Notes under the pieces: model-generated
The model's input: the letters and a program-made list of their open reading frames with translations, nothing else
The model's database searches: none
What the model was told of the DNA's origin: nothing
Position numbers and translations under genes: made by a program
Shown here: positions 1 through 64,000 of the stretch, piece by piece
How the letters are laid out: every line of letters starts with the position of its first letter
Position numbering within the stretch: position 1 is the stretch's first letter
Assembly (NCBI GenBank): GCA_033439295.1
Contig: JAVTLE010000003.1
Span: 2,046,001-2,110,000, forward strand
Source of the DNA: Deuterostichococcus epilithicus
Taxonomy: Eukaryota; Chlorophyta; Trebouxiophyceae; Prasiolales; Stichococcaceae
Direction of reading: 5' to 3'
DNA: 64,000 bases

Positions 1-326
1 TGAGACAGCGAAGACGATGGCTCTGGCTGCGGCCACACCTGAGCATGCTCGCCTGCCGGCTTGGCCCACTCGAAGTCTCAGCTGTGCAAAGTCAGTTCAG
101 CACCGCATAGAACTTTCTGTCTCAGGGCGACAGCAGTCTGGTCTCGTCTCTCGGACCACGTCTCAAGCACCTGTCTGCCGGCAGCCGCGCCGGCACGCCG
201 ATGGCAACACTATGCATCTGCTCGAAGGCTATCACCAGCCTCGAGCGTCAGGTATGTCTGCCGCCACTCGACTCCACTCTGGCAACGAGGGAAGGTGCAG
301 ACATGCCATTACTAGAGGCGGCGCAC

Positions 327-3300
327 CAACGATGTCGTAGGTGTCTGTTGGGCCGTCAGTGGGCTTGGTCAGCTCAATGTGCTGGTAGGCGTCATAGAGT
401 GAGGGGCGGATGAGCGCTGACATGGAGCCGTCCACCACGATGAAATTCTTGGTGCCGTTGGTCTTCGTGCCCGTCACCTGCACAGACGAACGAGAAAGGT
501 TTGAGGAGATGCAAGAACGGGGGCATTACTGTCGGCGCGTGCTCTTCACCAAGGGCCCCCCTTTCCCGCCTTGATGACGGGCGGAGCAGCGAGCAGACCG
601 CTTCCGCTGGGCCGCCGCCGGCGGCCGCAGCGGCTTTGGGGGCAACTCAGCGCAACCAAGTTGCAGCGCCGGCAACCTTCCACGGCAGTGCAAGGCGGCA
701 CCGGTGGCACTGCTGACACTGCCAGGTGCACAGCAGGGCGGAGGAGGATGTGACCATGGAGATCCAACACAGACGATTTCACAGAGTGATTAAGCAGCAC
801 CGTGTTGACAAGGGCGGAGGAGGTGGCGACCATGGAGCGCCCCGGCTCAAGGATGAGCGTCAGCCCGGTGGAGGCCACCAGGTCGCGCACTGTGTCAATC
901 AGGTCCTGCGGCGACGGCAGCACCTCCCCCCTGCAAGGCAGCACGGGACCTGAGGCGGGCGCTTCAGAACACGAGAAAGAGGGGCCGCCGGCGATGCGAC
1001 GATGACTAGCCTGCGACACTGCAGGATTGGCGGACCCGGGGGCAGCGCCCCCCCTCATGGATCGCGGGCGCTGGCGGGCGGAGCGCTCCAGCTTCTCTGG
1101 CGTACACGCCATGGCAGGCAGCGAGGCAGCGAGGCTGGCGTCCTAAATAAGATGAGCTTGCCGCTCTGCAGGGCATCTGGCTGCAGCCAGCAGCGGCGCA
1201 TGGGCGTGGCAGAGGGCCCCGACACTTTTGAGGGGGCCACACGAGTTGTAACATCCTCAACCGAAGCAGCCACGATTTTTGTGGCCGCAGACAGGACCCG
1301 CCTGTGGTAGTAGTCGATGCCCAGGCCGCCGCCAATGTTGAGGTACTGCAGGTCGAAGCCCTGGTCCCGGATGTGCTTGACGAAGTCCACCATGAGTACC
1401 GCCGCGTCCCTGAAGATGTTCACCTGCGCCCCAGCGGCGCGAATCAGGCATCGGCATGGAATGGCACGGTCGAAAGGATGGGCGGCGAGTCTTGCACGCC
1501 CCAGCGGCGACACAGAGAGTCAGGGACACAGCAGGCCGGGGTCGGGGCGCGGTTGGCGCGGTTGGCGCGGTGCAGCGCCGATGGAACGCTGTAAAGGGAG
1601 GCCCCAGAACGGCCTCGCCATCGTTGTCAAAGGAGGTTCCATTCGTACGTGCCTGGTTGTGGGCAGCGGCAGAACAGCCCTGACAAATAAAGGGTCCGCA
1701 CCTTGGTGATAGTGGAGCCCAGGTGGCAGTGGGCGCCCACCAGCTCCAGGCTGGGCTCTGCTTTGATGGCGTCCAGGAACCACTGCAGGAGGTGGCATGA
1801 AGACAGTGAGGGGCTGCTGTTGGCAATGGCGTCCAGGAACCAATGCGCCAGCAAGCGGCTTGTGGCGCAGTTCCAGGATCCCTGACGCGGAGGGGCTGAT
1901 GGAAACAGTGGAATGGAGAGCGAAGGCAGATGCTGGCGGCTGGTGTGCAGGGCATGGCGGCGCTGTGTGACCGCGGATCAGGTTGGCTCTGCTCGGCTGT
2001 GCAAGGCGTGCAGGTGGGGTGAGGCAGCTGCGGGATGCGGCTGTTGGGCGAGGGATCGCACCTGCAGCTTGCTGTTGCGGATGCCGAACTTGGAGTTGGC
2101 CAGGCCGGTGGACACATACTTGTGGACCTGCGCAGGCGCAGCGTGACAAGGCGCCCACGTCAGCAGTTGAGACCCCAATCTGGTTACAGGCACAGGCAGC
2201 GGTGCACAAAGTCGTTCGTGGTGGTGCCTGCTGGACACGATGTCAGCACGCCAGGCAGACTCGGTGAACCGCAGCAGGCTGTCCTATGGTCACGAAGGGC
2301 CTTTCGTAGGTTATAGAAGGAAGACAAGGACATTTCAGTGTCACCTGGGGGTCGACGTCCGGGTTGATGCGGATGAGCACACGCACGGGCTTGCCGGCGG
2401 CGCGGCCCGCAGCTGCGATGTTTTCTAGATCGAACTCCGAGTCGATGTTGACCAGCACGCCGTGCTTGGCGGCCAGCTCCAGCTCCCAGGGCAGCTTGCC
2501 GTTGCCGTTCAGGACCGTCCTGCGCGGGCGCGGGAGCGGAGTCGGCGTCAGGGAGGCCTGCTTTTGTATTTGCAGGAGTGAGTCCCACAGCAGCTTAATG
2601 ATGACCTCTGACGTTGCCAGTCAGCGCCCTCCTTCGGCCCAAGAGCAGCGAGAATCGTCAGCGAGGCTGCTGTTTTTGCGCTTCCTGGAGTCCGTCCCAC
2701 GTGGCCGCTGCCGTTCAGCACCGTCCTGCGGCGTGGGCGAGGCGGCAGTGTGCATCGCAAAGGGTGCTGCCCTGCCTCGGTTCCCAGGAGTGACTCCCAA
2801 GCCATGCTGCACCAGGGGAGTGGCAGCTGGCCGCTGCGGTCAGCACTGTCTTTGCAGGACATGGCAACATGGATCACAGGAATTCGGGCCCCCGCCCGGC
2901 GGGTGCGTACACGCAACCGGCAGCACCAGTGACTGCACGCCAGCAGATGGCCGGCAACCATGTGGCGCCGCGTCAGCGGGCGTCACCTGGTGGGGTCAAA
3001 GCCGGCGGCGATGGCCAGGTGGAGCTCATTGCCTGACACCAGCACTGCGCCAGAGCCCAGCGACTGCAGGTGCTTCAGGATGTGCAGGTTGTTGTTCGCC
3101 TTCACCGCGTAGCACAGCACGCTCTCCAGGCCCTCCAGCGCCTGTTTGATGACCAAAACACGAGCATTTGTATCGCAGTCTGTGCGGTGCACTCCAGCAG
3201 GAAGGGGCTGCCATGCAATTTTGATGCAAGCCGGACGTTGCACTCCACCCAGCTGAAGGCCACTTGAGGAGAGCAGCGGTGGTGGCTGCTGATGCGCGCA

Positions 3301-3762
3301 CAATCCCGCAGCATTGCCGCCGGCACACCGCAGGCGCCATCAAGGTCCGCCAGTCGATATACACACCTTTGCGTACGCCGTGTAGCTGTGCGTGATGCGG
3401 TCACGGCTGTACAGGTAGAAGGGGCTCTCCGGGACCTGCTGCCGAATGTCCTCCACTCGCAGGCTGTCACAGTAGACATAGCCGTCCTCGCCGGTGTAAA
3501 ACCCCAGGCCGGGCACCCCCGTGGCTGTCACTGCCTGCTGCGCCTCTTCTGTAGCGACGGCCGCCGGCGGCGTCGCGAGCGGCGCGCTCGACCTCCGCGC
3601 CGTCAGCGATGGCTGCGCGGCCGGCTGGCGCGCAAGCTCACCGCCGGCGCGGCGGCGGGCAGCCAAGGCCTGCGGTCTCGCAGCCTGCGGCCTGCATCGG
3701 CTGTGCGTGTGCAGGCTGTGGAGGAGGATCTGCTGTCCAGTCTGCGGCGCGTGCGTTCGCAT
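327..3762 (-). CDS. lysA: Diaminopimelate decarboxylase, 3' end outside window
   Basis: PLP-dependent enzyme that makes lysine from meso-diaminopimelate in the plastid. Eight exons are traceable: 3762-3367, 3141-2987, 2519-2345, 2127-2062, 1782-1702, 1423-1302, 930-801 and 477-327, with matching phases. Family motifs in order: [18 protein letters not shown] (the PLP lysine), [65 protein letters not shown] and the C-terminal [13 protein letters not shown] and [13 protein letters not shown]. The last visible exon ends in phase 1 just before the expected PVCES active-site segment, so the gene continues beyond base 1. The N-terminus is basic, Ala-rich and transit-peptide-like. Met at 3762 is preferred; an in-frame Met at 3888 is possible. 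The donor after the sixth exon is GC (CAG|GCGGGT). Confidence 0.93.
1825..1846 (-). repeat. Intronic copy of lysA exon 5 start
   Basis: Near-identical to 1764-1785, which encodes the WFLDAI start of the fifth lysA exon. It lies upstream in the transcript, inside the preceding intron. Confidence 0.75.
2699..2868 (-). repeat. Decayed tandem copies of lysA exon 3 acceptor and start
   Basis: The real exon start (2480-2521, encoding TVLNGNGK) is echoed at about 2699-2732 (TVLNGSGH in the same strand) and more weakly at about 2840-2868. Both copies lie in the intron upstream of the exon. Confidence 0.65.
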
Positions 3763-4177
3763 CTTGACCTGTATCGCTGCGCAGTTGCCGGATGTCTTTT
3801 GACGATTGCGACGTGGTTGGTCTGAATGCTTCGCTGAGCAAAGTCGGCGGCAGCGTCTGACAAGAGGAGCAATCTCACTTTTAGGCAATCACACGACAAC
3901 GGATCGTCAAAATAATGAGGAAAATCATGCTGAACTAATTCGTTCTGCATTGCCTGCCGTGACATGGCGCCACTTCAGCAAATCTTGCAGATTCTTCCCG
4001 GCAAAAGCAGGACATCCCGACAGCGCTCGCTCAGCTTCGCAATGTTCGAAGTTGCACGTCTTAAACGCCGTCCGCGTCCGCGAAAGCAGCTGAGGAGGTG
4101 CGTAGTCAGGTGCGTCGGGGAGGTCGTCCGTGGACTGCGACACTACCGACAATAACGGCTCGCTGGAGGCACGCACC

Positions 4178-63510: not shown

Positions 63511-63513
63511 CTG

Positions 63514-63530
63514 CGGGTTTCAGGGTTTAG
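63514..63530 (-). repeat. Telomere-like CCCTAAA at a splice acceptor
   Basis: On the transcript strand the intron ends CCTAAACCCTGAAACCCGCAG, right at the acceptor of the exon starting at 63510. Confidence 0.75.
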
Positions 63531-64000
63531 GCTTCAGCCTTCGAGCGGTGGTCCTGTCTCGCGCTGGGTTTCTGGCGTTGGCACTGACGCTGCTCTCCGC
63601 ATGCGTGTGCTTATCCCCTGGCCCTGCCGCCTGCAGGCAGAAGGGCGCTTTGCAAGGCATGAAATGCAGTCGTGGTCCTCGGCAGACGCCGTTTGTCAGC
63701 TTCGCCTGCTGCTCTGTCGAACTGTCAGGTCCGCGGCTGCGGCTGCGGCAGCCGCTCTAGTACCATGTGCCATGCCTGGCACCCAGACACGATCGGATGT
63801 CTGCGCTGAGACAGCTGCCTGGTGCACCCACCAGTTCAGTTTGCTGCCGGCTGCCTGGACAACAGCCCTGGTTGCCGATGCAGCTCCCTTGGGTGTCTGC
63901 GAGACTACCCTGCTCCGCCGCCCGCTGTCCCCCCGCGTGTTGCTGCACGCCTGGAATTGCAGCCAGCGAGTCGCTGTCACTTCGTCTGCTGGAAGATTTT
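63531..64000. other. Right edge, unresolved
   Basis: Probably intron and upstream exons of the Ala-rich gene. A minus-strand frame at the edge reads SSSRRSDSDSLAAIP before a GC-type donor-like site. Confidence 0.35.

Follow-up and report, generated by a model that had tools for sequence, protein, structure and literature searches.

Introns of the green alga Deuterostichococcus epilithicus carry decayed copies of the edges of their neighbouring exons. We analysed these copies in a stretch of 64,000 nucleotides (the window, C3:2046001-2110000) of its genome, which comprises 46.8 Mb in 21 contigs with 62% GC, and in further samples of the same assembly. The analyses confirm that the exon-edge copies in introns are real and that they are not confined to the window. 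We attribute them, with a probability of roughly 0.8, to recurrent tandem duplications of about 115 bp across exon-intron junctions, which would lengthen introns from exon sequence.

The first sample consisted of the window, 17 ten-kb stretches from 17 contigs, and one 3-kb locus (loci are named L001 onward). An independent 60 kb formed the replication sample and was scored with a frozen gene model. Exon borders are predictions of our own two-strand hidden Markov model (HMM) gene finder, which used seeds based on GC content at third codon positions (GC3) and learned its parameters from the first sample itself. The splice consensus at which it arrived (donor CAG/GTG, acceptor GCAG/G) is plausible; the median exon is 122 bp and the median intron 258 bp. 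The finder recovered most of the HMA1 and lysA exon borders that are seen independently in the proteins of relatives. In HMA1 it closed one exon at 7523, whereas the relatives' protein runs on to about 7566, and it called as exons two copies lying in an intron (5411-5446 and 5537-5572). We call such unused copies decoys; the miscalls show that those of HMA1 (at 5411 and 5537) are still exon-like.

Local repetition is in clear excess over controls. A scan for ungapped direct repeats at offsets of 40-300 bp (score at least 18, low complexity removed) found 69 in the window and the 17 ten-kb samples, against 2 at control offsets of 2040-2300 bp and 0 in dinucleotide shuffles, one per sequence. 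At least one local direct repeat was present in the window and in 15 of the 17 samples. A cruder, earlier scan of the window alone had returned 85 matches versus 0 in two shuffles, and 13 of the 85 survived the complexity filter.

These copies lie preferentially on the intron side of the junction. An edge test compared an 80-nt window at each junction with the 500 bp upstream, the 500 bp downstream, and far regions (2 kb); edges of predicted exons shorter than 60 bp were omitted, as were 48 of 711 windows (7 in the replication sample) whose length or complexity was too low. At a score of at least 22, a threshold picked after the first sample had been seen, 34/317 acceptor edges of that sample had a copy upstream, 6/312 downstream, and 0/518 in the far regions. 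Donor edges showed the mirror image, with copies downstream in 15/310, upstream in 2/306, and far away in 0/508. The replication sample gave 3/86 upstream, 0/83 downstream, and 1/135 far for acceptors, and 3/93 downstream, 1/89 upstream, and 0/146 far for donors. All six of its copy distances are 90-131 bp, and both direction and spacing are as in the first sample. At lower thresholds the replication sample showed no clear excess, either for acceptors at score 16 (16/86 upstream versus 13/83 downstream) or for donors at score 18 (5/93 downstream versus 11/89 upstream). Pooling the samples, copies occur at 37/403 acceptor edges versus 1/653 far regions (p = 3e-15) and at 18/403 donor edges versus 0/654 (p = 2e-8). 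The resulting bias of acceptors over donors is modest (37/403 versus 18/403, p = 0.011), and the replication sample, with three of each, shows none.

A second test, on 60-nt pieces, compared each exon end with its own adjoining intron and expressed p relative to other introns of comparable length. The first 60 nt of the exon matched the preceding intron at p<=0.01 in 24/367 cases (reverse complement, 7/367), and the last 60 nt matched the following intron in 13/356 (reverse complement, 2/356). The next 60 nt inward from the edges were at the null level (2/278 and 2/267).

The original prediction had called such density across a window unusual. The window does not stand out: at a score of at least 22, 11/98 of its acceptor edges have an upstream copy and 2/98 a downstream one, and elsewhere in the first sample 23/219 acceptor edges have an upstream copy. 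The density is a feature of the sampled genome, not of the window. Duplicates of the donor side, noted earlier in a few cases, show in the sample-wide excess and in one case with a predicted donor at 49444; in the window itself the donor excess is absent, since its 93 donor edges have 1 copy downstream and 1 upstream.

Within the window, seven unrelated genes had been named as carrying copies. The pattern is clear in five of them:

lysA, minus strand: in the intron whose donor side is at 2987, two copies of the start of the next exon, at 2695-2739 and at 2801-2850; the used exon starts at 2519
lysA, minus strand, 2610-2636: extra short repeat in the lysA intron
lysA, minus strand, 1782..1846: copy at 1814-1846 of the exon start WFLDAI..., some 60 bp upstream of the used exon (edge 1782)
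HMA1, plus strand, 5411..5702: in intron 5153-5674, copies at 5411-5463 and 5526-5564; the used exon runs from 5675
HMA1, plus strand, 6131..6397: in intron 5897-6338, copies of the exon start 6339 at 6131-6176 and 6231-6292 (offsets 222 and 104)
HMA1, plus strand, 9432..9600: copy at 9432-9479 of the exon start with acceptor 9561, 119 bp upstream, outside the coverage of the relative's protein P0001
NKAP-like gene, minus strand, 15520..15698: copy at 15637-15698 for exon 15520-15591 (offset 98)
NKAP-like gene, minus strand, 16101..16372: for the exon start 16164, a copy at 16212-16289 (82% identical) and a weaker one at 16332-16372
NKAP-like gene, minus strand, 16700..17021: the exon start 16763 recurs at 16821-16890 (offset 121) and at 16958-17021 (offset 254), 68-70% identical
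Unnamed protein gene 48197-50400 (a membrane protein in the original prediction), plus strand, 49032..49346: the exon start 49285 recurs at 49032-49100 (offset 244) and at 49151-49219 (offset 130)
Same gene, plus strand, 49399..49539: donor side, with the exon end (predicted 49444) occurring again in the intron, 104 bp downstream
Same gene, plus strand, 49983..50287: for the exon start 50228, copies at 50094-50170 and 49983-50017
Same gene, plus strand, 49763-49808: weaker additional copy of the exon start 50228
Hydrolase gene, minus strand, 57708..57989: the exon start 57760 recurs at 57812-57892 (offset 121) and at 57929-57989 (offset 219), with 64-67% identity in gapped alignments

The exon structure of lysA at 2519..2850 was taken from the relatives' proteins P0121, P0122, and P0128. 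In the P450 gene the evidence for an exon-edge copy is weak (score 19 at 39151-39181, offset 62; score 17.5 at 38280-38332). The DUF3431 case (54131 at offset 85, score 20) is ambiguous because the second copy falls past the predicted gene end. Pfam matches on the predicted proteins back the NKAP, P450, and DUF3431 identities, and the hydrolase match (PF12146) is narrowly above one cut-off (27.9 versus 27 bits); a Pfam search of the predicted membrane protein gave no match. Window positions 37833-46560 (minus strand) hold two adjacent similar genes, evidently tandem paralogues, of which one has the Pfam P450 match. The model 10920-19395 joins the NKAP-like gene to one with a DSBA-like thioredoxin domain, most likely two genes.

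The copies have a preferred distance from the edge. With a threshold slightly below 18, the offsets form a hump at 60-160 bp with a peak at 110-119 bp, against 0.29 per 10-bp bin in the background, and a second, smaller rise at about 220-280 bp; the commonest spacing is about 115 bp. Among the 38 acceptor cases of the first sample with a score of at least 20, copies lie 56-370 bp from the edge, 26 of them at 87-155 bp upstream; one is closer to the edge and 11 are more distant. In 28 of the 38 the alignment ends no more than 72 nt from the exon start. At least two local copies stand head to tail in tandem orientation. Introns with two or three copies are nearly regular, with offsets of 121 and 219 at 57760, 130 and 244 at 49285, 113 and 218 at 16164, and 104 and 222 at 6339. 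On average, similarity begins at the junction and stops about 50 to 60 nt into the exon. The decoys resemble former acceptors and not random AGs: the AG is kept in 21/34, their median position weight matrix (PWM) score is 2.7 (4.7 if the AG is kept), compared with 5.2 at real acceptors and -5.6 at random positions in introns, and 18/34 score above the random 95th percentile.

Proteins of relatives, not of this strain, bear on which acceptor is used. P0001 (470 aa), 96% identical to the HMA1 query, joins 5152 to 5675 and 5896 to 6339 and thus leaves out the decoys of both introns. For lysA, P0121 (454 aa) shows the last-acceptor form at 2519 and at 1782, and the decoy sequence is absent from it. 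Both proteins appear to be transcript-derived, as P0001 comes from a JGI contig of 1778 bp, too short for these introns, and P0121 from a contig of 1850 bp. The claim that one copy stays in use fits both genes checked: the relatives' proteins show that the last-acceptor form exists, and other forms would be compatible with them as well. Among the 120 best matches listed for the lysA protein, two at 91% and 87% identity rank above the named green algae (Chromochloris 75%, Myrmecia bisecta 74%, Asterochloris 74%); the HMA1 piece is 62% identical to that of Myrmecia bisecta. Two of these genus names are interpretations of JGI codes. From the matches we take the source to be a chlorophyte, probably a trebouxiophyte.

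The exon part of the acceptor copies decays with no clear coding constraint. In 30 acceptor pairs, mismatches at the three codon positions were 96/549, 116/547, and 115/536 (0.17, 0.21, and 0.21). Because they are almost even, and because insertions or deletions (indels) fall in the exon part of 23/30 pairs, acceptor copies have not been kept as coding exons. Introns with a copy are also longer (median 445 bp, n=42) than those without (257 bp, n=339; p = 1.6e-5). Longer introns give more room for a copy, and the length difference therefore supports growth and does not prove it.

The youngest case shows the duplicated unit most fully. At L014:9178-9469 a tandem unit of 133 bp is present in 2.2 copies with a 91% match and includes both the intron tail and the exon start; its spacer of 74 nt shows 96% identity to the stretch of equal length upstream of the decoy. 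The copy thus contains the splice site and both flanks, although this is not visible in every pair. Spacer sequence is shared in an array at L001 and in HMA1 too, where the spacers between the copies at 5411..5702 are partly similar, and in 11/34 pairs copy and exon have similar intron tails (p<=0.05). To separate selection of pairs from measurement, 24 pairs were selected on the first 32 exon nt and their identity was measured beyond. The exon identity was 72% (control 49%), or about 0.28 changes per site, and that of the intron part 59% (control 51%). Plain tandem duplication followed by equal neutral decay predicts 57-60% for the latter, and it suffices on average in this small sample.

We propose the following course of events. 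Short tandem duplications, mostly of about 90-140 bp, would recur in the genome. One that spans an exon-intron junction would create two acceptors (or two donors). If the copy adjoining the full exon is spliced, the protein would stay as it was, and the second copy would turn into intron together with the exon piece that it carries. The unused piece would decay neutrally and selection would hold the exon in use; because that exon remains under selection, the exon part of the duplicate would stay recognisable longest. Arrays may be duplicated again, giving two or three evenly spaced copies and longer introns. The repair step might be fill-in and end joining at staggered breaks, which is a guess. 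The mode at about 115 bp may be a size set by the duplication process, or it may arise because smaller units would leave the real acceptor lacking a branch point of its own and so fail. That junctions were repeatedly duplicated, as first suspected, is supported by the directional excess on the intron side and by the full unit at L014, and is further backed by the acceptor signals of the decoys, the decay lacking clear coding constraint, and the longer introns.

The class of mutation is not limited to junctions, because Tandem Repeats Finder reports young duplications elsewhere: one of 123 bp with an 88% match within predicted coding sequence (L002:5262-5492) and one of 76 bp in predicted intergenic DNA of L019. 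The latter locus holds two 76-bp tandem arrays (L019:8376-8936, predicted intergenic) whose units look, by eye, like mutual reverse complements. A more ambitious proposition, which we find doubtful, is that intron length was largely built in junction-duplication steps of about 115 bp, with the number and divergence of the fossils forming a roughly clock-like growth record and the true share far above the detectable 3-11% of acceptor edges.

Several results weigh against junction duplication as the source of the copies. The gene models are our own HMM predictions from sequence, by a finder trained on the first sample. Copies are less frequent in the replication sample than in the first. Mid-exon windows (exons of at least 240 bp) match upstream in 3/23 cases, downstream in 0/23, and in far regions in 2/43; the upstream matches are perhaps coding repeats. 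The 14 donor pairs show a mild third-position excess of mismatches (43/267, 58/269, and 73/271, or 0.16, 0.22, and 0.27), with indels in 12/14, in a set too small to judge constraint. Substitutions between exon and copy are GC-balanced, with no clear drift toward intron composition: in 34 acceptor pairs from the window and L001-L018, GC->AT changes occur at 134/1330 sites and AT->GC changes at 143/551, and GC content is 60% in introns and 70% in exons. GC-biased conversion is one possible cause. A simulation per pair expected similar intron tails in 19.7/26 pairs and 8 were found, and several pairs with 85-90% exon identity show no intron-tail similarity. The shortfall can be explained by the choice of pairs on exon similarity, which biases divergence downward. 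Finally, among 93 repeats 12 are purely intron-intron, several of them decoy-decoy pairs, and 0 intergenic, versus 31 and 16 under random placement, in a comparison that relies on predicted genes, with decoys wrongly called as exons among them. We estimate, short of proof, that this scarcity reflects faster loss of similarity between two free-running copies; a genuine bias of duplications toward junctions may also be compatible with it.

The strongest competing explanation is a duplication of the exon edge with filler. A staggered break in the exon would be filled in, 40-70 nt would be duplicated, and unrelated filler DNA between the copies would supply a new acceptor, which implies repetition of exon sequence only. 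The average start of similarity at the junction and the unrelated intron tails of several young-looking pairs fit such an event, and so do the spacers: 19/23 have no detectable local source, and three of four tried have no other match in the genome. The search for spacer sources at p<=0.05 gave 4/23 in the 600 bp upstream, 0 in their reverse complement, 0 downstream, and 1/23 in the downstream reverse complement. Once the selection bias is removed, however, the intron part matches what plain tandem duplication predicts, and at L014 the intron part is itself duplicated. Filler also leaves unexplained the old acceptor at the start of the copy, as well as the acceptor signals kept upstream of the decoys. 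We regard this alternative as improbable, at a small fraction of the weight given to tandem duplication across junctions.

We give very little credence to the copies being mutually exclusive or cassette exons in use. The gene finder did call two HMA1 copies coding, as noted above, but the copies span on average only the first 50-60 nt or so and not the whole exon, the acceptor pairs lack a concentration of changes at third positions and have indels in 23/30, and the decoy sequence is absent from P0001 and P0121. Equally hard to sustain is an insertion into introns of pieces of spliced message, templated by RNA or cDNA. It would account for similarity that is on average confined to the exon, yet the sequence upstream of the copy resembles the end of the previous exon in only 1/22 (p<=0.05), and the decoys bear acceptor signals.

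Introners produce intron sequence in bulk, and many genes here have repeated intron sequence of comparable length, which could suggest that introner-like mobile elements were inserted close to junctions. The bulk production is the likeness; the difference is that no dispersed family was found and that the copies come from the adjacent exon. An all-against-all comparison of 381 introns gave 4 weak inter-intron matches, one of them within the same HMA1 array, and four spacers searched genome-wide, with very common words skipped, matched their own place only (that of L014 also its neighbouring copy). We consider such elements highly implausible as the source. Chance, low complexity, or assembly artefact can be set aside with as much confidence: the genome is rich in GC and in trinucleotide runs, composition probably explains several long donor alignments of low identity, and the reverse-complement control at acceptor edges (7/367, against 2/356 for donors) exceeds the 1% expectation, but the direct-orientation counts are 24/367 and 13/356, the far-offset, shuffled, and wrong-direction controls are far lower, and in 25 of the 26 pairs of the intron-tail simulation 10-26% of the aligned sites differ between copy and exon, which argues against misassembly.

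To our knowledge, intron lengthening that is free of transposons is poorly documented. Vaughn and Bennetzen reportedly treated natural insertions in rice in 2014. The closest precedent is a tandem duplication over an intron-exon boundary in a potato RdRp gene, a single case that yielded a new intron and an inserted exon (Ma, Lan and Niu 2016, PMC4974935). As described there, its unit joins the 3' part of an intron to the 5' part of the next exon and takes its splice signals from the parent junction, as ours would; the difference is that here existing introns seem to be lengthened, recurrently and in many genes. In the tandem genomic duplication model (Rogers 1989, Hellsten 2011), as outlined in PMC3443670 and PMC4974935, an exonic AGGT segment is duplicated and gives rise to an intron. 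The two processes share, on that outline, a tandem duplication that is tolerable as splicing removes one copy, whereas the duplicate here holds an existing splice site. Small tandem duplications are a product of break repair in the summary of Schimmel 2021 (PMC8355091); this class of short local mutation is a plausible source of our units, and the link to intron length and the mode at about 115 bp are features that the summary does not explain. Among the papers listed in searches of the open-licence literature (titles and the starts of abstracts), none described a genome whose introns commonly bear exon-edge fossils. Single cases were known already; the density and the preferred size are the new part.

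An exon in use, held by selection, is a fixed reference for dating its fossil copies, and the rate, size, and polarity of intron growth thereby become measurable. The arrays are also natural cases for testing how the spliceosome chooses among near-identical acceptors. For gene predictors they are a warning, as our own HMM took two decoys for exons. Elsewhere in the window, the predicted gene 19934-29414 contains long CAG-type repeats (glutamine/proline-rich coding sequence) at 25248-25358 and 26616-26971.

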